Source: Leptospiraceae bacterium
Lineage (GTDB): Bacteria > Spirochaetota > Leptospiria > Leptospirales > Leptospiraceae
Assembly: GCA_015075105.1 (NCBI GenBank)
Contig: JABTUZ010000002.1
Location: 910,313 to 974,312, forward strand
Length of the DNA stretch: 64,000 bases
Direction of reading: 5' to 3'
The translations under genes and the position numbers were made by a program. This document shows positions 12,328 to 50,101 of this stretch, piece after piece. Position 1 is the first letter of the stretch; each line of letters begins with the position of its first letter. The notes under the pieces were generated by a model, which did not search any database, was not told where the DNA came from, and saw only the letters and a program-made list of their open reading frames with translations.

Positions 12328-12381
12328 GCATTTTATAACTTCCCTGAAAAATTATTTTATCAAAAGAAATTTATAACACTT

Positions 12382-12499
12382 ATGCAAAAACCCTTGTAAA
12401 CAATTTAAGCGAGAGTCGGAGTCGATAGGAGAGGCGATTTTCCTGAGTAAATAATCGTATATTTGTCCAAAAAAGACTTTTTGCAGGTGCCGCATTCAT
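12382..12499 (-). repeat. Divergent member of the CTGCAAAAA palindromic element family
   Basis: This lies in the 329-bp gap between two divergent genes. It begins TGCAAAAACCC and ends GACTTTTTGCAGGTGCCGCATTCAT. The outer arms match the ends of the 115-bp elements at 34146 and 42954 in reverse orientation, but the interior differs. The arm TGCAAAAA / TTTTTGCA is a perfect inverted repeat. The 9 bases between the terminal ATG and the CAAAAA run are missing compared with the intact copies. It looks like an old, decayed copy. Confidence 0.5.
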
Positions 12500-24509: not shown

Positions 24510-24650
24510 AGTATTCTCCTAATATAAAATTTTTCTTTCCTCTAGTTTCTGTCCCCAGCCACTATTTTTTGCCTCTTGATATAAGGTAAAATAATATCGT
24601 GATAGAAATAAAATTTTTACAATTTTAGAAAAATTTTTTTAGTTTTTACA

Positions 24651-24787
24651 GAAAAAGTTCTGAACCCGTACTAAATGTGAAATTCCTCGAAAAAGATGGA
24701 TGTTCCATACATTTTTGCACGAAAAGTGTTGAACCCGTACTAAATGTGCAATTCCTCAAAAAAGAATGGAGTTCCCACATTTTAGCG
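24651..24787. repeat. Two tandem direct repeats of about 69 bp
   Basis: Copy 1 (about 24651-24718) and copy 2 (about 24720-24787) share GAACCCGTACTAAATGTG, then AATTCCTC, then a GTTCC..CACATTTT-like tail, with scattered differences. They lie in the 511-bp gap upstream of the LtaS-like gene. I see no reading frame that uses them. The rest of this gap (24510-24650) is plain AT-rich sequence. Confidence 0.65.
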
Positions 24788-24822: not shown

Positions 24823-24934
24823 ATACTCACCTGCAAAAAGACTTACTTAGAAAAATACCCTTAAATACTTAATAAAATCAATATTTCACATCGATCCCAG
24901 CTCTTGCAACGCAAGGGCTGGGCAGTAGCATCAT
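24823..24934 (+). repeat. Variant palindromic element with different internal hairpin
   Basis: The left end ACCTGCAAAAAGAC and right end GGCAGTAGCATCAT match the ends of the 115-bp elements at 34146 and 42954, but the interior is unrelated. The interior carries a strong hairpin at 24897-24921 (stem CCAGCTCTTGC / GCAAGGGCTGG, loop AAC, one G-T pair). The total length is about 112 bp, close to the 115 bp of the main family. Confidence 0.55.
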
Positions 24935-33042: not shown

Positions 33043-34269
33043 TCATTTCTTAAACAGAAGCATAAGATTAGATTCATTTTTTCCTCTCAAGATACCATAC
33101 CCATAGCTAAAATTGAGAGGGGTGCTATTCTTTAAATATTTTTCTTTGAGTGTTGATTGAACTGGTTGATAAGGGATATTTGCGAGGAGGGTTGCTTTTT
33201 TATAATTTCCAAACAGTTGAATATTCCAATTGTCTTCTTTAAAAAATGTAAATGGTATGCCTGAATCATCTTGAATTATTGTTTGACTTTTTTGTAAAAT
33301 TATATCTCTTAGTCCATCAAGGTTTACTCTTGGGAAAAGATACTCTGCTGATTTTATCATAACACCAAAATTATTTAATTTACTAAGAAATTTTCCTTCG
33401 GTTGTAGCTGCGGAGTGAGAATCTTTGTTTAGCATTATACTTAGATAGATGAGTTCTTTACTCGAGTTAGTCTTAGGATCATAAAATTGAATTCGAACAC
33501 CTTCAGGATTTTTACTGAGGTTTTCAGATTTAGGAGCGATGCTTCCTTCGTTGTTGATAATTACATCTGTAATATCTTCTATTTCTAAGCCAACTTTTGT
33601 AATAAAAATAATTAATGCGGGAAGAGTTCCTGAAAAATGTGGGTTACGAAATTCTTCTCTCATAATTTTTCTGCGAAAGTAATTTCTTTCTGAAATTTCT
33701 GAAATAAGAGTTTTTATGGAATGAAGAGATTTTCTAATTTGCTCGGGGCTTAGATCTAGCGGATTGGTGACTTTTCCTGATTTTTCTAGGGCTATCATTA
33801 TATATTTTTTTGCATTTGGATAAAACCCGTATAGATTTACAAAATCAGCTCCACTGAAAGGATAAAACGATTCTTGGATTTTGTAAGATTTGTCTTTAAG
33901 GTTTATTGATTCCCAATTTCGGATCGGACCATAGCTTTCTTTTTCAATTGTATCCCAAATTTTTTTCATATCCATTGAATATTTTTTGAAATAAGCCGTT
34001 TGTGAAATAGAATAGTAAGGACTATTTGACTCTACAGATTCACCTGATAAGAATTGGCTTAGAAAACCCAGATAGATAGTTTTTTCATTTGGAGTTTTTC
34101 TTTGGGTAGATGTGCAGGCGGATAGAAAAAAAATAAGAATAATAAATGGCGTACCTGCAAAAAGTCGTTTTTTGAAAAAGCAATTGTTCAAAAAGCCAAT
34201 AAAAGTGCCATTTTCTAGCGTTGTAAAAAGCCCTGAAAGGGGTTTTTGCAGTAGCGTCATAAATCTCAT
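33043..34269 (-). CDS. Predicted lipoprotein whose N-terminus is formed by a palindromic element
   Basis: Up to 408 residues. Residues 4-42 are translated from the 115-bp repeat at 34146-34260. The host sequence resumes with IILIFFLSAC-TSTQ, a good lipobox with Cys at residue 52. The mature domain (residues 52-408) is unrecognised; FYPFSGADFVNLYGFYPNAKKYIMIALE recalls uncharacterised bacterial envelope proteins. A TTG at 34191 inside the repeat gives NNCFFKKRLFAG plus the hydrophobic stretch: a 25-residue signal peptide whose basic region comes from the element. ATG 34260, the element's own end, and ATG 34269 are the other starts. No start has a convincing ribosome site. Confidence 0.6.
   Translation of the reverse strand: MRFMTLLQKPLSGLFTTLENGTFIGFLNNCFFKKRLFAGTPFIILIFFLSACTSTQRKTPNEKTIYLGFLSQFLSGESVESNSPYYSISQTAYFKKYSMDMKKIWDTIEKESYGPIRNWESINLKDKSYKIQESFYPFSGADFVNLYGFYPNAKKYIMIALEKSGKVTNPLDLSPEQIRKSLHSIKTLISEISERNYFRRKIMREEFRNPHFSGTLPALIIFITKVGLEIEDITDVIINNEGSIAPKSENLSKNPEGVRIQFYDPKTNSSKELIYLSIMLNKDSHSAATTEGKFLSKLNNFGVMIKSAEYLFPRVNLDGLRDIILQKSQTIIQDDSGIPFTFFKEDNWNIQLFGNYKKATLLANIPYQPVQSTLKEKYLKNSTPLNFSYGYGILRGKNESNLMLLFKK
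34146..34260 (+). repeat. 115-bp palindromic element, copy A
   Basis: One copy of the family found in triplicate at 42954-43302, differing by only a few bases (for example GCGTACC for GCATACC). It has outer arms CTGCAAAAA / TTTTTGCAG, an inner hairpin TTTTTGAA / TTCAAAAA, and a second hairpin built on CCCT-gaa-AGGG flanked by A5/T5. Its reverse strand begins with ATG and stays open to the other end, merging with the lipoprotein frame. Confidence 0.9.
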
Positions 34270-34414
34270 AAAGTAGTAAGCTAATTAGCATGATTTTTTT
34301 TGCATAGTCATTCAAACAATAATTATTATTTTTTTGATAAGATGATGAGAGAAATTTTTTTAGTTGGATAATTGTAATTTCCTTATACAAGAATCCTGCA
34401 TTATGTCTAAAAAG

Positions 34415-35308
34415 CTAAACTATTTCGATTACTGAAAATGCGGTCTTTTCGTTTTCATTCAAATTTTCAGACCAGTCTTGAAGCTCTTCTGCGAATTCAC
34501 TTGCAAATTCTTTCACCTCTAATTTGTAATTTTTTTGTAAGAATAATTTTATTCTATCTTCGCTGTAAGATTTTTTTTCATTGTTCAGTAAAGATGTAAT
34601 ATTTTTAGAATAGATGATTATTTTATCTCCATAGCCAAATTGAACTCCAGTGAAATCCAAAGATAGGCGAGGTAAGGACTTGAGCATAGGTTTTGGAATA
34701 CGGTAGTCAAGAATCGTTTTGGTTTTTCTTTGAAAAATCAGAATATGAAATTCCTGAAAAATATTTTTTGGAATAAGCAAATTCTTATTCAGATATTGAT
34801 GGATATTTTCTGAAAATATTCCGTGCCAAGATATTTCTATTGTTGGAGCTTCTTCTGAATTTTCATTGTCTAATTTTACGTAGGATCCGTCTTTTCTTCT
34901 ATCTTGATTTCTTCGTTCTCTCTTCTCTCTTCTCTCTTCCACAATATTTAAAACTGAATCCGACCAGTTAGCAATTACATTAGAATTTTTTTTGTCAGTT
35001 TCTGTATTTTGAGTTTCGGAAATATTTTTCGTTTTGGAAGTATGTGTATTTTGATACAAATGAAAAAAAGCAGTAAATAGAAAAACCCATACAATAAATA
35101 TTAGAATAGAGTATTGAATGAAATAATTAACGGCGACTCCTGTTTCTGCAAATACAACTGGCAGTATAACTAAAACAATACCTAGTACTCCTGCAATGAG
35201 AATTTTTCTTGTAAGAGATCTTCTACCCGATTCAAGAAAAAGTAGATAAATAGAAAAGCATAAATAAAAAATAATAGTAAATAGAGTAGTAAAGAAAATA
35301 ATTTTCAT
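34415..35308 (-). CDS. Membrane-anchored protein, function unknown
   Basis: 297 residues. Three N-terminal hydrophobic segments occupy residues 1-95. A polar linker follows (ERREKRERRNQDRRKDG, highly basic), then a soluble domain from about 155 (TIEISWHGIFSENIHQYLNKNLLIPKN; LDFTGVQFGYGDKIIIYS) ending in an acidic stretch. I recognise no catalytic motif. It lies 15 nt downstream of coaX and is probably the tail of that operon. It could be an envelope or signalling adaptor, but there is no direct evidence. Confidence 0.5.
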   Translation of the reverse strand: MKIIFFTTLFTIIFYLCFSIYLLFLESGRRSLTRKILIAGVLGIVLVILPVVFAETGVAVNYFIQYSILIFIVWVFLFTAFFHLYQNTHTSKTKNISETQNTETDKKNSNVIANWSDSVLNIVEERREKRERRNQDRRKDGSYVKLDNENSEEAPTIEISWHGIFSENIHQYLNKNLLIPKNIFQEFHILIFQRKTKTILDYRIPKPMLKSLPRLSLDFTGVQFGYGDKIIIYSKNITSLLNNEKKSYSEDRIKLFLQKNYKLEVKEFASEFAEELQDWSENLNENEKTAFSVIEIV

Positions 35309-35323
35309 TGTATTAATCCCTAT

Positions 35324-36115
35324 TTATTTTATATGATTTAGACGAAAAATAATTTCAAGACCTTTTAGTGTGAGTAGAGGCTCGATTTCATCGAATATTC
35401 CTTTTCTTTCATTGTGTATCGTGGATACGAGTCCACCGGTTCCGATTACTTTGTAGCTTGAGCTGTATTCTTTTTTGATTTCTCCGATTATACATTCTAA
35501 CAGTCCTACCCATCCATAAAAAAAGCCGGCCTGCATAGCCTCCAGAGTTGAGTCGCCAAGGATTTTCTCAGGAGGATGAAATACGATAGGCGGAAGCTGT
35601 GCGGTATTTTTTGTGAGAGCTTCCATAGAAATTTTAAGTCCAGGAGCAATTACTCCTCCAAGGTATTCTTTTTTTTCGGATACTACGCAAAAAGTAGTTG
35701 CAGTTCCTAAATCAACGATTATGGAATTTCCAGGATATAATTCGGTAACTGCTGCAGCATTTACAAGACGGTCTGCTCCGATTTCAAAAGGTCTGGGGTA
35801 GTGAATAGAAAATGGGAGCTTCATTTGGTGGCTTACGATGATGGGTTTTACTTTAAACCAATCCTCAAGCATTCTTTCAACTATCGGATTGAATGAAGGC
35901 ACTACACTGGAGAATATGGCGCTTCCAATATTTTCCGATACTATTTTATCTTCTCTTAAAAAACCGCTCAAGAACACTCCGAGTTCGTCAGAGGTTCTAT
36001 CGAGTTTTGTAACAGTTCTTCTGTGAAAGTAAGGAGATTTTTCTCCGGGGGAAAAAACGCCAATTACTGTATTTGTATTTCCTACGTCTATCGCTAAAAG
36101 TAAATTTCTATTCAT
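35324..36115 (-). CDS. coaX: Type III pantothenate kinase
   Basis: 263 residues from ATG 36115 (GAGGTGA ribosome site six bases before). The ASKHA-fold signatures are clear: [15 protein letters not shown] (phosphate 1), [15 protein letters not shown] (the GADR motif of CoaX) and [15 protein letters not shown]. It phosphorylates pantothenate in the first step of CoA synthesis and does not show feedback control by CoA. It overlaps the end of birA by 8 nt; the neighbouring gene order coaX-birA is common in bacteria. Confidence 0.95.
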
Positions 36116-36869
36116 TTCCAATCACCTCAAACCCTGGGCCTGTATCCAATAATTCAAACTTTTCACCGGTTTTTGTTTCCACAATCAGAAATCCGTCAGT
36201 AGTAAAGCCAATGGATTTTCCAAGAATTTGTCTTTCACCGATATAGGCTTTAATTATTTTTTCTTTTAGATAAGAATTTGAATAAACGAACTCAAGCTCT
36301 TTTTCAATCCTTTCTTTTTCCAAGGCAATTAAGGCAGCTTGGTTTACAGATGACACTAAATTTTCTGTTAAGTTTTTCATAAGGGTAGTTTTTGGTTTTG
36401 AATCTAATAAAAATCCAATATTTTGAGAATCCGGAAAAATTTCAGTTCCAAAAATATTTATTCCTATTCCTACAATCACAATGAGGCTATTTCCTTTTTG
36501 TTCGCACTCGATCAGAATACCTGCTATTTTTTTATCTTTTTTATAAATATCATTGGGCCACTTTATTTTTAATTCATTGGATAGCGTAGGGAATATTTTT
36601 GTTAAGACTTTAAAAATTTCGCTTCCAACAAAAAGAGACAAAACAGAAGCAGGGAATCTTGTATCTGTAAATTCTATTTTTCCTGAAAAGAAAATTTTAT
36701 CTTCACCGTAAGAATTCCAGACTTTTTCTTTTCTGCCTCTTCCATTGATTTGTTCTTTTGAGGACACCCAAACTCCGGGTTGGAATTCTTCTTTTTTTAA
36801 GTACGTGTTTGTTGAATCTACACTTTCTAAATAGATTCCTTTATCAATATATAATAAGGTGATTGGCAA
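36108..36869 (-). CDS. birA: Biotin-[acetyl-CoA carboxylase] ligase
   Basis: 253 residues. The catalytic domain has [13 protein letters not shown], the biotin/ATP loop [11 protein letters not shown] (GRGR-x-x-x-W), and [19 protein letters not shown]. The N-terminal winged helix of E. coli BirA is absent, so it is a ligase only and does not repress. It attaches biotin to biotin carboxyl carrier protein. It starts 1 nt after engB and overlaps coaX, in a tightly packed operon. Confidence 0.92.
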
Positions 36870-36870
36870 T

Positions 36871-37467
36871 TTATTTTTCTCTTATGATTTCAATAATATC
36901 TTTTAATCCGGTAGAATTTTTAACAGATAGAAAAACTATTTTCAAGTTGGGATAAATTTTTTGGAATTCATTGGATTTCTTTTTTAGAGTGTGAATTTCT
37001 TTTTGATTCAATTTATCAAACTTTGTCCTTATTAATACTGGTTGTATATTTTTTTTGAATGCAGTTTGGATTATATTTTCTTCTTCTAAAGGAAGTTCTC
37101 GTGCAGAATCACAAAGCAGAAAAATAGTTTTTAGCATTTTTGAGTGGTTCAAGTAAGAATTTACTCTTTCAATCATAGAGTCTCTAAGTTGGTGCGAGCC
37201 TTTTGCGAATCCAAAACCCGGCAAATCTACAAAAAAAAAGTGATCCTCGGCAAGAAAAAGATTAATTTCTTTTGTCTTCCCCGGTGTAGAAGAAACTTTT
37301 ACTAATTTCTTTCTGCCGCATAACGCATTAATCAGACTCGATTTTCCAGAATTGGATCGTCCACAAAATGCAAATTGTGGGATAGACTCAATTTGTGGAA
37401 TTTTTTTTGTATCTACATAAGCGGAATGAAAAATTACATTTTGAAATTGAAACTTTGAATTTATCAC
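36871..37467 (-). CDS. engB: Ribosome biogenesis GTPase EngB/YsxC
   Basis: 198 residues from GTG 37467. G1 is GRSNSGKSSLINALCG, G2 is in STPGKTKEINLF, G3 is DLPGFGFAK, and G4 is TKFDKLN (TKxD). Length and motif spacing are those of the YihA/EngB family, which assists large-subunit assembly. GTG 37467 is preferred over TTG 37485 because AGGAG lies six bases before it and it overlaps the tilS stop as GTGA, a coupling pattern. Confidence 0.93.
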   Translation of the reverse strand: MINSKFQFQNVIFHSAYVDTKKIPQIESIPQFAFCGRSNSGKSSLINALCGRKKLVKVSSTPGKTKEINLFLAEDHFFFVDLPGFGFAKGSHQLRDSMIERVNSYLNHSKMLKTIFLLCDSARELPLEEENIIQTAFKKNIQPVLIRTKFDKLNQKEIHTLKKKSNEFQKIYPNLKIVFLSVKNSTGLKDIIEIIREK

Positions 37468-38728
37468 TTGAGGTCTCCTATGCAACTTCGAATAGAAGGT
37501 TCGTACATTTCAAAAAGAATTTTTATTGGTATTGCATCTTGAAAAAGAATAGGAATATTTTTTCTTACAAGAACAGGAATGTTCGTTTCTCGAAATATTT
37601 CTGAAACAGATTTGTGCATTTTATTTTGAAGAATTTTTAATCCATTTTGATACACACCTAAGGTAAAACCTTCTTCCAATTCCAGTTCTTTTTCATTCCA
37701 TAAAATAAAACTTTTTCCGGCTTTAAGAATAATTTTTGGTCTTTTTAAAAGCGAAGAGTTTTTTGGGATAATGATGAGGTTTCCATTTTCTTTTTTGTGG
37801 AAGTAGGCTTCTTTATTTTCTAATAGAATTGGTTTTTTATCTTTGATTTTTGTTGCGAGACTTTGGAAAAAGTTTTTATTTAACGGGTGAAGTGGAAAAA
37901 CTTTCAAGTGAATGTCTAAGATTTCTTTCAAATTTGAGAGGTTGGCTTCCAAAATCAAATTTGAATCTATGCTAATCTTAGAAATAGAATTGCATTTGAA
38001 ATCAGGATCGTTATGAGCAACAGCAAATTCTTCGGTGTGAAAATTCTCGTAGAGTTTTTTCGGATTCAATCCTTCATTCAATAGAAATGGAATCATATTT
38101 TTTCGGATTCTGTTTCTGAGGAATTTTTCGTCTTCGTTTGATTCGTCCGTGAAAATATTCCAATTGGAAATTTGGCTGGCTTTCTCTATTTCCTCATAAG
38201 AAAATTTTAATAGTGGTCTAAAAATATTATTGTTATAAATCGGAAGAGTTTGAAATCCTTTATGTCCTGTCCCTCGAATCATATTAATAAAAATCGTCTC
38301 AAGATAATCTATCTCGTGGTGACCTGTTGCGATATATGCGTTATGCTTGATTGCAAGTTTTTTTAATTCGTGGTAACGAATCACTCTTCCTGTTTCTTCT
38401 AAGCTCATTTTTAGTCGTTTGGAAAGATAAGGAATGTTTTTTTTTTACAATATATCATTAAAGGAAATCTTTCGATTAAATAATATTTAAGATGACCTTC
38501 CTCTTCTTGGTTATTTCTGATTTGATGGTTTAAGTGAAAAATTATCGGCTCAGGGATTCTTTTTTTTTCAAATAAATAATAATAAAAATTTAATAGAAAA
38601 CTAGAGTCCTTCCCACCGGAATATGCGAGGACTGCTTTTTGGTTCTGCATTAAGTTGTGGTAAGAAGATAGGTTGATAAACCCGGCTTCAAAAATTTTTA
38701 TAGTTCTTTCTAAAAAAAAATTTTTCAT
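37464..38728 (-). pseudogene. tilS: tRNA(Ile)-lysidine synthase gene with a frameshift
   Basis: The N-terminal part (38411-38728) has the PP-loop LAYSGGKDSSFLLNFYYY and HLNHQIRNN, then leaves frame after MIYCKKK at a run of ten A on the coding strand (38437-38446) and stops at 38411. In the next frame the protein continues as NIPYLSKRLKMSLEETGRVIRYHELK, exactly where TilS should continue, and runs to 37464 with GHHEIDYLETIFINMIRGTG. TilS makes lysidine in tRNA-Ile(CAU) and is normally essential, so either a long-read homopolymer error or slippage is likely. It is coupled to engB (GTGA) and to the SpoIIE gene (4-nt overlap). Confidence 0.85.
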
Positions 38729-40638
38729 TGTTTGCGTTTTAAAGTGAGAAGTGTAATGTCGTCGTTCTGTTCTGCACCACTCGTAAATACTTTTATATCC
38801 TTGTAGATATTCGCAAGCATTTCTTGAGGGTCCAAAGATACATTCCTTAAAAATGATTGAATCAGATTAGCTTCTTCAAATTGAAGTCCTTCTGTGTTGG
38901 TTGCTTCGGTAACTCCATCAGTGAAAGTGAGCATAACGTCCCCTTCATTCATTTCGATAACTCCAGTATTGAAAAACTTGGAAATATCCGGTTGAATTCC
39001 GAGTATAATCCCATTTGTAGGGATGGACTCAATCTTTTTTGATTTTTCTCTGTAAACCAAAATATCTCCGTGTCCTGCTCCACTGAAATGAAAGGTGTCT
39101 GACTGACTGTCCCATCTGATAACTGTAATCGACATAAATCGTGGGATTGCAGAATTTTTATAATTGTGGTAGATATATGTGTTTACATCGGAGGCTATGT
39201 CCCAGGTAGAAAACTTTTTTCTTACCAATGAATGAATAATTGTTCTGACAGTTGCCATTACAAGGCCTGCCGGAATTCCTTTCCCGGAAACATCACCTAT
39301 GCACAAAAGAGTGTCGTTGTCATTTGGAGAAACTATTATATCAAAGTAGTCTCCTCCTATTCCCCGTGCAGGGATCATTAGCCCTCCAAACTCGTAGCGA
39401 GGATGAACCGGCATTGATTTTGGGAGAAGGGCAAATTGGATTTCTCTTGCGATCTCAATTTCTTTTTCAACCCTTTCTTGCCTTGTCATTTTTTGGTAAA
39501 GCATAGCATTTTCGATTGTGATTTGGGCTTGGGCAGAATAGGCGGTAAGAACTTCTACATCGTCTCTATTGAATCTTTTTTTTGAAGACCTGCCAATTGC
39601 AAAAACATATTCATTTCCATCACCTCGAAACAGGGGCAGGATCAAGATTTCCATTCCGGAAAATCCTAATTTTGTCAATACTTTGAATTTATCCGGTTCA
39701 AGAATATTCGGTTCTCTGAATTCTAAAATTTCATCGTACCCTTCCTTGTCCTCTATTTCTGATTTTTCGACTGTCAGATCAATGGTATCTTTGGTTCTAA
39801 GTAATTTATAAACGTTAGTAGATAGAGTGAGTTTATCGAACTCGATTAAAGCGTTTACGCTTGTGTCCGCAAAGCCGGAAATTGTGAGAAGAATCATTTT
39901 TATCATTTCGTTACGATTATCAAAATACAACCTACTTAAAGTTAGAGCAGCTGTGTGTAAGTTCTGAAAATTTCTAGATTGCTTTTTTGTTTTTTCGTAA
40001 AGAAGGGTATTTCTAAGCGAGGTAGCAAATTGTCCGGCGATTAGCTCGATTACTTTTTTATCTCTTTCTACTTCGCTATCTTCGTAATCCATGTAGTCAA
40101 TCATAATGACTCCAAGTGGAGTGTGTTTATAAATGATTGGAATTAGAAGTTGTGCATGGATTTGTGTTTTTTTTTGATAGAATCGTAGAAGTTTATTTTT
40201 TGTATTGAGCAAATCGTAGAAGATAACTTTATTTCCCATGAGGCTTTCTACAACTTCTCCACCAATTTTGAGATTGTATTTTATTTCAAAGGAGTCTAAA
40301 AAAGGAAAATTTTCTCGGCTCCTGTGGAGATATTTTGCCATTTTTAAAACTCCGGTATCTTCGTCTAAAAATAGTATCCCAAGGTTTTCTTTATTCAGCT
40401 TTGTACTGATAGCCGATGTAACTTTCGTAAGAAGGTCATCCAAATCGAGGGCAGAATTGAAAAGAGTAATAAATTCAAAGATTAAATCCGAGCTACCTGT
40501 GTATTGATCGAGTCTTGCAAATCTGGGAGATTGGCGTTTTTCTAAAATCCATTCTTTCCCGCAGGTTTCGCAATTGAATCTTCCCCGAATTGTTTGTCCG
40601 TGGGGAACTTTTTTTCCTCCACAAAGTGAACATTCCAT
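38725..40638 (-). CDS. SpoIIE/RsbU-type PP2C phosphatase with GAF domains
   Basis: 637 residues. An N-terminal zinc ribbon (CSLCGGKKVPHG..NCETCGKEW, residues 3-30) is followed by two GAF-type regions (about 45-220 and 225-385) and a PP2C phosphatase. The phosphatase shows EREIQFALLPKSMP-type entry, GGDYFDIIVS, and CIGDVSGKGIPAGLVMAT with metal-binding Asp residues, then FTDGVTEATN. It would dephosphorylate an anti-sigma antagonist in response to a signal sensed by GAF. No anti-sigma gene is adjacent. It begins the operon containing tilS, engB, birA and coaX. Confidence 0.88.
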   Translation of the reverse strand: MECSLCGGKKVPHGQTIRGRFNCETCGKEWILEKRQSPRFARLDQYTGSSDLIFEFITLFNSALDLDDLLTKVTSAISTKLNKENLGILFLDEDTGVLKMAKYLHRSRENFPFLDSFEIKYNLKIGGEVVESLMGNKVIFYDLLNTKNKLLRFYQKKTQIHAQLLIPIIYKHTPLGVIMIDYMDYEDSEVERDKKVIELIAGQFATSLRNTLLYEKTKKQSRNFQNLHTAALTLSRLYFDNRNEMIKMILLTISGFADTSVNALIEFDKLTLSTNVYKLLRTKDTIDLTVEKSEIEDKEGYDEILEFREPNILEPDKFKVLTKLGFSGMEILILPLFRGDGNEYVFAIGRSSKKRFNRDDVEVLTAYSAQAQITIENAMLYQKMTRQERVEKEIEIAREIQFALLPKSMPVHPRYEFGGLMIPARGIGGDYFDIIVSPNDNDTLLCIGDVSGKGIPAGLVMATVRTIIHSLVRKKFSTWDIASDVNTYIYHNYKNSAIPRFMSITVIRWDSQSDTFHFSGAGHGDILVYREKSKKIESIPTNGIILGIQPDISKFFNTGVIEMNEGDVMLTFTDGVTEATNTEGLQFEEANLIQSFLRNVSLDPQEMLANIYKDIKVFTSGAEQNDDITLLTLKRKQ

Positions 40639-40906
40639 TTTAGTTCCCTTAAATGAGATAAAAGCAATAAATTTTAGTATAAATTTTCGAAAGATTGAAA
40701 AATGAATTTTCTTCTTGAAAATAAGTCAAAATAATTTTTCAGTAAGCTCAAATGAAAACTATTAACGATTTTTGCAAGCATATTCTTTTTTCCGAAAAAT
40801 TAGAAGAAAAATTAATTTCACCTCCTCTTTGATATTTGACGAAATAGACAAGTATTCAATTACCTGAAAAGCCGGCACGATCTAAAAAAAAATATCCTTT
40901 TCCGAA

Positions 40907-41611
40907 GTGAAAACAAAAATTCCACGTTTGGAGCATTTGAATAGTGTCGAAAATAGAGCGATTTCTTTTCATCATTTTGCTAACCACGAGCTTATGGCGA
41001 TAGAGCTTTTTGCTTTGGCATTATTAAAATTTCAAGACGCTCCAAAAAAGGTGCGAAAGAGTTTGTTTAGAAGTCTCAAAGACGAGCAATTGCACTTTAC
41101 ATTGTACTTAAACAGAATGAGAGAAATGGGAATGGATTTTGGAGATAGGCCACTGAATTCTGTTTTTTGGAAGCAAGCTCCCAAAATTGATTCTGTAGAA
41201 AAATTTGCAGCGATAGTTGCGATTAGTTTTGAAGGAGCTAATTTAGATTTTGCAATACTTTATAAAAATATTTTTTTGCATTTTGATGATAGGCTTTGTG
41301 CAGATATTATGGAAAAGATTTATAGAGACGAGGTGAGCCATGTAAAAAGAGGGTTGTACATTCTTAGGAATTCAGAAAAATTTTCCGAAAACGATTGGGA
41401 TACTTATACCTCACTTTTGGATGAAAAATTTACTCCCCGAAGAGCAAAAGGCTATTGCTATTTTCCGGATTCAAGAAGACAAGTCGGATTGGATGAGATT
41501 TTTATTGAGAACCTTGGAAAGTATTCAGATGAATTTTCAAAAAGAAAACCCCAAGCACTCGCTACGGGAATATTGAATGAGAAAAATCTTCAGACTCAAT
41601 TCGTACTTTGA
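40907..41611 (+). CDS. DUF455 ferritin-like protein, probable di-iron enzyme
   Basis: 234 residues. Ligands of a di-iron four-helix bundle line up: Glu33 (ELMAIELFALALL), Glu60 and His63 (LKDEQLHFTLY), Glu109 (SFEGANLDFAI), Glu142 and His145 (YRDEVSHVKRG). This E, ExxH, E, ExxH set is that of ferritin-like oxygenases, and the family is known to me as DUF455 (related to MiaE-type tRNA hydroxylases). The start is GTG. It overlaps the ATP-grasp gene by 35 nt, so the two are coexpressed. The substrate is unknown. Confidence 0.75.
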   Translation: MKTKIPRLEHLNSVENRAISFHHFANHELMAIELFALALLKFQDAPKKVRKSLFRSLKDEQLHFTLYLNRMREMGMDFGDRPLNSVFWKQAPKIDSVEKFAAIVAISFEGANLDFAILYKNIFLHFDDRLCADIMEKIYRDEVSHVKRGLYILRNSEKFSENDWDTYTSLLDEKFTPRRAKGYCYFPDSRRQVGLDEIFIENLGKYSDEFSKRKPQALATGILNEKNLQTQFVL

Positions 41612-42734
41612 AGAAGAACTGAAATTTTATCCTGAACCAGTTGTATTGAATAAGAATACAATACAAAGAAATTCTTTATTAGAGAAGCTCTTTTTTTTGG
41701 TAGCAGATAAAAATGATTTTGTTCTAACCACAAATTGCCTGAACCCGAAAATGTTTGAGTATTGGAATGAGAAGGGTATTGAGTTTGCAGAGGAGTTTTG
41801 CCGAAAATTTTCGGATGAAAAGTTAGAATTCATCGAATGGGGCAAGACTTCTGATTTTGTAAATTCTGAAATTTTGTACAATCCGATAAAAATTGGCGAC
41901 TCGAAACAAATCAATTCTAAAATCTTTCAAGGAAATATTAAGATTCGTTTAGAGATTTCTCCTCTTGAAATATTCATCGTGAAAGATTTTCAAAGTATTC
42001 AAAAAATTTTAGCTGATAGAAGTGCGACTTATATTTTAAAACCAGAGTTTAATTTTTCAGGAAAAGACACAAAAATCCTAAGAAATAAAAATGATGTAAA
42101 GTCTTTGGAAAAAATATTTTCAAACAGTGATGAGAAAAAATACGTTTTAGAAGAGTTGGCAGAAAATAGAATCCGAGATTTTAGCGGTATATTTTCTTGC
42201 AGTCATGGAATGGTTAAAAATCTTGCGATAACGGAAATGATCATTTCAAAAACAAGGGCTTACATTGGTTCAATAATTGAATTAGAGAAAGAATATTCTT
42301 TTTTTAATGCGTTGTGCGAAACTGTTCAAGATTTTGTAAATACCCTTCCTGTAAAATACGAAGGCTCTTTATCTGCCGATGGGTTTGAATTTATCAGAGA
42401 CGGTGAAAGAGATTTTCAGTTGGTGAGTGAAATCAATTTCAGGTATTCAATGGGGAGAGTCTTATACGATCTTATTCAAAAATATCCGTCGGGATATAAA
42501 GTTTTTGGTCTTCATTTTTTTCGTATAGTGGACAAAAGTATCTCAGAAAAAGTTTTGCTTTCTTTGTTTTCAAAATTGGAGAAAGATTTTCAATCTTTTA
42601 TTCTTGCGGTTACCCCATTTCAAAATATAGATGGGAACATCGCAAATTTACTTGGTTTACACATTGCCTCAAATTCAAGAAAGGATTTGGATTTGATTTT
42701 AGAAAGTTTAAAGAAATATTTCAAAGAATGTTGA
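41577..42734 (+). CDS. ATP-grasp family protein
   Basis: 385 residues. The ATP-grasp core appears in TYILKPEFNFSGKDTKIL (the K-P..G-x-G nucleotide loop) and ends with the metal-binding ESNFRYS-like segment VSEINFRYSMGRVLYDL. Such enzymes join a carboxylate to an amine or thiol with ATP. It lies in an overlapping pair with a di-iron DUF455 protein, suggesting a two-step modification. The 3' end overlaps the minus-strand ACT gene by 115 nt. ATG 41577 lies inside the upstream gene; no closer start is evident. Confidence 0.7.
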   Translation: MRKIFRLNSYFEEELKFYPEPVVLNKNTIQRNSLLEKLFFLVADKNDFVLTTNCLNPKMFEYWNEKGIEFAEEFCRKFSDEKLEFIEWGKTSDFVNSEILYNPIKIGDSKQINSKIFQGNIKIRLEISPLEIFIVKDFQSIQKILADRSATYILKPEFNFSGKDTKILRNKNDVKSLEKIFSNSDEKKYVLEELAENRIRDFSGIFSCSHGMVKNLAITEMIISKTRAYIGSIIELEKEYSFFNALCETVQDFVNTLPVKYEGSLSADGFEFIRDGERDFQLVSEINFRYSMGRVLYDLIQKYPSGYKVFGLHFFRIVDKSISEKVLLSLFSKLEKDFQSFILAVTPFQNIDGNIANLLGLHIASNSRKDLDLILESLKKYFKEC

Positions 42735-43420
42735 GAATTTCTTGGTTTAGTTTTTCTGAATTCAGAAATTTCATTTTCCGTAAATAATTTTTGCAAATTT
42801 AAGCGTATTCTCTCTATTGATTCTGCATCCATAGTCTGTTCATTTATATTTTGAACAAAAAATATATCTTTGACAGTGCCTTCTTTGGATGTTTCCGCGG
42901 TCGCTTCAATTATGTTCCAATCTTGCGAAAATAAAATCGAGGATATCCTATAAATGGCATACCTGCAAAAAGTCGTTTTTTGAAAAAGCAATTGTTCAAA
43001 AAGCCAATAAAAGCGCCATTTTCTAGCGTTGTAAAAAGCCCTGAAAGGGGTTTTTGCAGTAGCGTCATAAATGGCATACCTGCAAAAAGTCGTTTTTTGA
43101 AAAAGCAATTGTTCAAAAAGCCAATAAAAGCGCCATTTTCTAACATGTTGTAAAAGCCCTGAAAGGGTTTTTGCAGTAGCGTCATAAATGGCATACCTGC
43201 AAAAAGTCGTTTTTTGAAAAAGCAATTGTTCAAAAAGCCAATAAAAGCGCCATTTTCTAGCGTTGTAAAAAGCCCTGAAAGGGGTTTTTGCAGTAGCGTC
43301 ATAAATAATCCCTATAGCATTGAATGGAATTATAAAAGTTAGTAAATACCCCAAACCTTTTGGAGTAGAATGAATTACAATTTCTCTATTTTTGATATTA
43401 TTATTTAAAGGAGTATTCAT
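42620..43420 (-). CDS. ACT-domain protein interrupted in frame by three tandem palindromic elements
   Basis: 266 residues if read through. Residues 12-40 (REIVIHSTPKGLGYLLTFII) and the part after 156 (DWNIIEATAETSKEGTVKDI, FFVQNINEQTMD, ERIRLNLQKLF) together resemble one GlnD-like ACT domain. Between them, residues 40-156 are encoded by three tandem copies of the 117-bp repeat (IYDATAKT..FCRYA each time), with no stop. The ends of the insertion are ATCCTATA / ATCCCTATA, a possible target duplication. Whether the product folds or works is unknown. The C-terminus overlaps the ATP-grasp gene. Confidence 0.55.
   Translation of the reverse strand: MNTPLNNNIKNREIVIHSTPKGLGYLLTFIIPFNAIGIIYDATAKTPFRAFYNARKWRFYWLFEQLLFQKTTFCRYAIYDATAKTLSGLLQHVRKWRFYWLFEQLLFQKTTFCRYAIYDATAKTPFRAFYNARKWRFYWLFEQLLFQKTTFCRYAIYRISSILFSQDWNIIEATAETSKEGTVKDIFFVQNINEQTMDAESIERIRLNLQKLFTENEISEFRKTKPRNSQHSLKYFFKLSKIKSKSFLEFEAMCKPSKFAMFPSIF
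42954..43302 (+). repeat. Three tandem copies of the 115-bp palindromic element (period 117 bp)
   Basis: B1 42954-43068, B2 43071-43185 and B3 43188-43302 are nearly identical. B1 and B3 match completely by eye; B2 differs near its second hairpin (CTAACATGTTG in place of CTAGCGTTG, one A and one G lost) and keeps the same length. The terminal arms CTGCAAAAA (42963-42971) and TTTTTGCAG (43051-43059) are perfect inverted repeats. Confidence 0.95.
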
Positions 43421-50060: not shown

Positions 50061-50101
50061 GTTGTAAAAAGCCCTGAAAGGGGTTTTTGCAGTAGCGTCA
50101 T
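50061..50101 (+). repeat. Truncated copy of the 115-bp palindromic element
   Basis: The last 41 bases of the element (GTTGTAAAAAGCCCTG onward, ending GCAGTAGCGTCAT) are intact; the left part is missing. It lies in a 483-bp gap. On the minus strand, sequence just beyond the break reads KKASTAMKKINEALENYQ before a stop, possibly the tail of a gene broken by the event. The rest of the gap (49952-50040) is AT-rich with no other feature seen. Confidence 0.85.

Follow-up and report, generated by a model that had tools for sequence, protein, structure and literature searches.

The palindromic sequence that recurs in this stretch of a Leptospiraceae genome raises three questions: whether it is mobile, what moved it and how some of its copies come to lie within genes that remain unbroken. 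The window (i.e. the whole stretch of 64,000 nucleotides that was analysed) corresponds to G000:C2:910313-974312 in a genome of 3.42 Mb and four contigs; positions without a prefix are those of the window.

Unit structure and copy number

The repeat unit consists of a 111-bp core with a 6-bp direct repeat on either side (consensus ATAAAT); core plus duplication amounts to 117 bp, i.e. 39 codons. The core begins with GGCGTACCTGCAAAAA and finishes with ...TTTTTGCAGTAGCGTC. The inverted ends and inner hairpins that had been claimed do exist; the terminal inverted repeats (GGCGTACCTGCAAAAA / GACGCTACTGCAAAAA) are imperfect and include nine exact bases (CTGCAAAAA/TTTTTGCAG). In 31 of 41 full copies the two hexamers that flank the core are identical; shuffling of the pairs gave a mean of 16.8, and none of 20,000 shuffles reached 31 identical pairs. 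Variant duplications also agree at both flanks (ATGAAT, ATAAAA, ATAAGT, ATGGAT, ATATAT and, twice, ATAATT), and the duplication is always oriented in the same way, with its A-rich version on the plus strand of the element.

BLAST of the genome with the full unit gave 42 matches (E 6e-56 for a full unit), 28 of which are essentially full length with 92-100% identity. A profile built on 22 copies, young and old, gave 89 matches at E<=0.01, including a few partial ones and two that are the left ends of an IS1182-like IS, and the genome total is ~85 copies. The original prediction of a mobile palindromic family with further copies in this genome is thus borne out. Small size (the 111-bp core), many copies (the 89 profile matches) and no transposase gene, together with terminal inverted repeats and a target-site duplication, identify the window repeat as a MITE, and a new MITE family is the most fitting label for it. 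The young copies, about 26-28 of them, hardly differ from one another (those of 111 nt have 0-8 differences from the consensus), while older copies kept their ends and diverged in the interior. Sequence identity and intact duplications suggest that copies have moved recently. Two large contigs end inside MITE copies (G000:C1:2007055-2007153 and G000:C2:1410335-1410425), and the assembly thus probably broke at repeats.

Within the window, the copy reported at 34146-34260 is one unit of the young subfamily, with its core at 34148..34258 on the plus strand (G000:C2:944460-944570) and ATAAAT duplications on the same strand at 34142..34147 and 34259..34264; it is inserted in frame in the signal peptide of a lipoprotein. 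The sequence at 42954-43302, taken earlier for a single copy, does belong to the family and consists instead of three tandem units on the plus strand (42956-43300) with a period of 117 bp: cores at 42956..43066, 43073..43183 (a variant near the right hairpin) and 43190..43300. The hexamer shared by tandem copies would reflect insertion into a pre-existing duplication. The truncated copy noted at 50061 contains only the right hairpin and right end (50061..50099, plus strand; 39 nt, 100% identity). Profile matches confirm the two divergent relatives suspected at 12382 and 24823 as genuine old members: one at 12376..12490 on the minus strand (E 1e-10) and one at 24827..24932 on the plus strand (E 1.3e-13), which has a GC-rich right hairpin (CCCAGCTCTTGCAACGCAAGGGCTGGG). 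A second dispersed repeat family, made of roughly 70-bp modules (GTTGAACCCGTACTAAATGTGCAATTCCTC...), occurs at 24643-24775 and at ~55 other genome sites; its modules often form tandem arrays and often have old MITE copies nearby.

The right-end hairpin and the candidate transposase source

The sequence of the right-end hairpin is swapped between subfamilies (AAAAAGCCCTGAAAGGGGTTTTT, GTCCAGCTCTTGTCCACAAGGGCTGGAC, CCCAGCTCTTGCAACGCAAGGGCTGGG and ACAAAACTCATTTAGAGTTTTTGT) and its pairing is kept. Paired hairpin cells amount to 89% versus 69% in shuffled data, and double changes to 47 versus 21.7 in shuffles; since the members of a subfamily are related to one another, the number of independent events is small. 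Pairing is lost when the hairpin register is slid, and the chosen register is by far the best. This covariation suggests that the retained hairpin plays a part in transposition or in the transcript. A functional RNA or regulatory repeat (e.g. a terminator or mRNA-stability hairpin) spread by selection, rather than a transposon relic, would account for both the covarying hairpin and the intergenic preference described below. However, the terminator-like T-run is not retained in the older hairpin types, and target-site duplications, tandem, truncated and in-frame genic copies and the genome-specific distribution fit transposition, which makes such a repeat a very unlikely explanation. That the hairpin could be an integron attC site was also rejected, because the copies are scattered and have target-site duplications. 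Three derivatives of 44-45 bp (L038, L039 and L041) have 6-bp duplications and lack the middle between the unit's two AAAAAG motifs; they probably arose by deletion between these motifs and may define the minimal mobile unit.

As had been stated, the window holds no transposase: genome-wide searches with PF05598, PF13751 and PF01797 gave no match inside it. The most likely source is an IS1182-like element, which would have mobilized the MITE in trans. This element is present as a 1366-bp copy (C1:382121-383486), a second copy (C1:316413-317817) and a partial third copy that has only the right one of the two ends (C1:1735876-1736653). Its ends are GATACACCTGCAAAAAGTCTTTCTTGGAAATA...TTTTTGCAGGCAGGTC: the first 32 nt of the left end are identical to those of MITE copy L051, and the right end (TTTTTGCAGGCAGGTC) is similar to that of the MITE, matching it at 12 of 16 nt. 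ATTTTT flanks one copy on both sides, and the other full-length copy has no duplication. The transposase frame is broken, and its fragments match DUF772 and DDE_Tnp_1_6, i.e. the IS1182 type; a DUF1564 protein, which would be compatible with Leptospirales, adjoins the element. All three copies are broken or partial, and the genome holds no intact transposase with MITE-type ends. Terminal inverted repeats, target-site duplication and the IS1182-like end matches together point to a DDE transposase.

Two other elements were considered as sources and rejected. An intact IS with a 495-aa DUF772 transposase, present in four copies, has ends that differ from those of the MITE. These four near-identical copies (L102-L105; G000:C1:1023123, 1151165, 1158780 and 1183052) have flanks that resemble integron attC core sites (GCTACGTTATATGC, GTTAGGC), and are perhaps attC-targeting ISs in a large chromosomal integron. 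An IS5-like IS (L106, G000:C1:151913 to ~153400) has its own ends (TAAATAGTC.../...GACTATTTA) and interrupts a MITE copy, the right part of which is missing; it has a 393-aa reading frame.

The right end of the MITE (GTAGCGTC) adjoins the conserved hairpin, and GTAG and CGTC, both of which occur in this terminus, are known as tags of REPs and of some RPEs (PMC3733652). This arrangement would be shared by a single-strand substrate of an IS200/IS605-like tyrosine transposase, such as the REPs with GTAG/CGTC tags, and REPs likewise have intergenic and some genic copies; moreover, the genome has one intact Y1 transposase gene. However, that sole gene (L180, G000:C2:1282651-1282992), which is IS200/RAYT-like, is flanked on both sides by near-identical hairpins of its own (GAATTCCCTCCAGCTTTAGCTGGAGG) that are unrelated to the MITE, and the search for a RAYT/IS200-like driver that had been proposed came to nothing. 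The MITE has a 111-bp core with two inverted ends, versus a much shorter tagged stem-loop of 20-40 bp, and no RAYT is associated with it. Its 6-bp target-site duplications are also unexpected for this route: REP units leave none, and IS200/IS605 chemistry is not expected to give one. We therefore regard REP/RAYT-type movement as highly improbable. In the IS1182-like reading that we prefer, a transposase acting in trans, most likely that of the now decayed IS, would move the MITE into AT-rich, ATAAAT-type sites, and each insertion would leave a 6-bp target-site duplication, as the co-varying flanks show.

Copies within coding sequence

Intact copies had been thought typically to lie in genes, and this does not hold. 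When the flanks of 70 loci were scored by a coding model trained on the window, only six loci lay within coding sequence: five single copies in four genes and the tandem triple in a fifth gene. The other loci lie between genes or at their borders, and in the latter position the duplication often preserves a stop or start codon; at L011 the MITE copy shortens the 3' end of the upstream reading frame. By contrast, 113 of the 141 ATAAAT sites in the window (80%) are inside called genes. Genic insertions are thus strongly under-represented, presumably because of selection. One locus (L171, C1:80910-81012) was rejected as a genic copy: it has a coding score on both sides, yet no continuous frame.

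Reverse-strand frames were said to be open across the whole unit; this is true of two of the three reverse frames of the 117-nt unit and not of the third, and one forward frame is open as well. At least three open frames of six occurred in 151 of 5000 dinucleotide shuffles, which is only mildly unusual. The five single genic copies are all in the phase A|TTT|AT, an option available at 31 of the 113 genic ATAAAT sites; the phase product is 0.0016, or 0.015 when only open phases are counted, with the two lptF copies taken as independent. Five of five genic copies have a length divisible by three and an open frame; among intergenic young copies the figure is 10 of 20 (Fisher p 0.057). The 70 loci include no confirmed out-of-frame genic copy. 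The expectation that genic insertions are in frame more often than by chance is mildly supported: in-frame retention is real, and its statistical weight beyond the empty-site evidence is modest.

Because 117 bp is a multiple of three and three frames are free of stops, insertion in a compatible phase adds 39 codons and leaves the gene unbroken. Selection would then purge out-of-frame genic copies, and intergenic, signal-peptide and protein-tail copies would remain. As a whole, we consider an explanation that combines movement in trans, a coding-compatible unit of 117 bp and filtering by selection to be very probable. It is unlikely, though less so than the rivals discussed here, that the element has evolved this coding compatibility as an adaptation, with its 117 bp, its open frames and a reverse-frame peptide, ending in ...NNCFFKKRLFAGTPF, that can replace the positively charged n-region of a signal peptide. 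On that reading, the target ATTTAT would be read as TTT-AT (Phe-Ile), which goes well with a hydrophobic signal sequence, so that insertions there would be tolerated or even useful.

The clearest host is an lptF/lptG gene (PF03739, E 6e-82) with two MITE units in a single 681-aa open frame. The first unit splits ...EDMPKGF|IIHTDKKR..., both sides of which are conserved in seven same-family orthologues; these are 63-73% identical, read ...DIPKDFKVHTDENR... and lack both units. The second unit falls in the C-terminal tail, which is variable, and an extra 3 nt within this unit leave the frame intact.

Three in-frame single copies lie in signal peptides, namely those of a FecR-domain protein, a LolA-like protein and the window lipoprotein. 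The FecR-domain protein reads MNKIF|IGIVISALTILGIG, and a good ribosome-binding site precedes its native ATG. In the LolA-like protein, the MITE also contributes an alternative ATG. The window host gene (33043..34269, minus strand) encodes a putative lipoprotein with no family match; its empty site is MRFIILIFFLSAC and its filled site reads MRF-MTLLQ...GTPF-IILIFFLSAC. The segment from the unit to the lipobox offers no usable start codon, so the unit must be at least partly translated if the lipoprotein is exported. Translation of all three genes could start within the MITE, the LolA-like gene with its element ATG being the clearest case.

The triple insertion lies in a reading frame at 42620..43420 (minus strand), whose empty site encodes one ACT domain. 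The insertion interrupts this domain (FNAIGIIY|RISSILF) and reads in another reverse frame than the single copies, giving DATAKTPFRAFYNARKWRFYWLFEQLLFQKTTFCRYAIY and variants of it three times. In ~1.5 Mb of one relative read for orthologues of three host genes, a clear orthologue was found for the ACT gene only. In this same-family genome the ACT domain is uninterrupted (NNEMGIIYRTTAVLY; 42% identity over 79 aa, E 8e-17). The orthologue has two ACT domains, so the window gene looks truncated at its C-terminus, and the host of the triple insertion may be decaying. Empty sites are thus available for lptF in seven genomes and for the ACT gene in one. Absence of the segment from these orthologues means that it is not an ancestral domain, which rules out the objection that accompanied the original prediction.

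Distribution and relation to known elements

Spread through the Leptospiraceae, as first proposed, is not supported by a profile search of 47 genomes from other genera of the class (28 genera in all), which gave no MITE match. The exact left-end pattern has one chance-like match only among 84,980 GTDB r220 species genomes. The same pattern in viral contigs, and BLAST of plasmids and phages, gave no MITE relative; Rfam and Pfam hold no family matching the unit, and the open-licence literature gave no relevant paper linking Leptospira to MITEs or such repeats.

Palindromic repeats that code for protein are known from Rickettsia, Wolbachia and Methanocaldococcus; Neisseria and enterobacteria provide examples of MITE fusions. 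Rickettsia palindromic elements (RPEs) are about 105-150 bp, palindromic and in frame in genes of conserved proteins, some of which contain more than one copy (PMC2229807, PMC10969869 and PMC3733652). The MITE resembles them in being small, palindromic and in frame in genes whose orthologues lack the segment. It differs in its demonstrated 6-bp duplications (the RPE target-site duplication is listed as '?'; PMC2229807), its mostly intergenic copies and its candidate source IS, and an exact search with its left-end pattern gave no sequence relation. Size class, palindromy and in-frame genic copies (PMC2229807 and PMC10969869) would suit a true RPE homologue spread by horizontal transfer; however, the database searches above gave no relative or family match, and we give this origin almost no credence. 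The suggested likeness to RPEs therefore stands for behaviour and not for relatedness.

Correia elements (the 107-bp form), ERIC/RU-1 and YPAL/RU-2 share with the MITE terminal inverted repeats, target-site duplications, intergenic bias and in-frame gene fusions. The MITE is distinct from these in its own sequence, ATAAAT duplication and host lineage, in one lptF with two in-frame copies, and in a right hairpin that is swapped among subfamilies with pairing kept. In-frame fusions are on record for both MITEs and RPEs (PMC2229807, PMC10969869 and PMC3733652), and a MITE-made signal peptide is known in Yersinia YPO1552 (PMC2229807).

In brief, coding-compatible mini-transposons are already known, and the family described here is a new example that works like RPEs. 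With duplications, empty sites and a candidate IS, a MITE family in a spirochaete-type genome provides a clear mechanistic case, in which in-frame tolerance follows from an element plus duplication that is a multiple of three and from open frames, together with selection. The doubly inserted lptF makes the effects of such inserts on a probably essential membrane protein directly testable.
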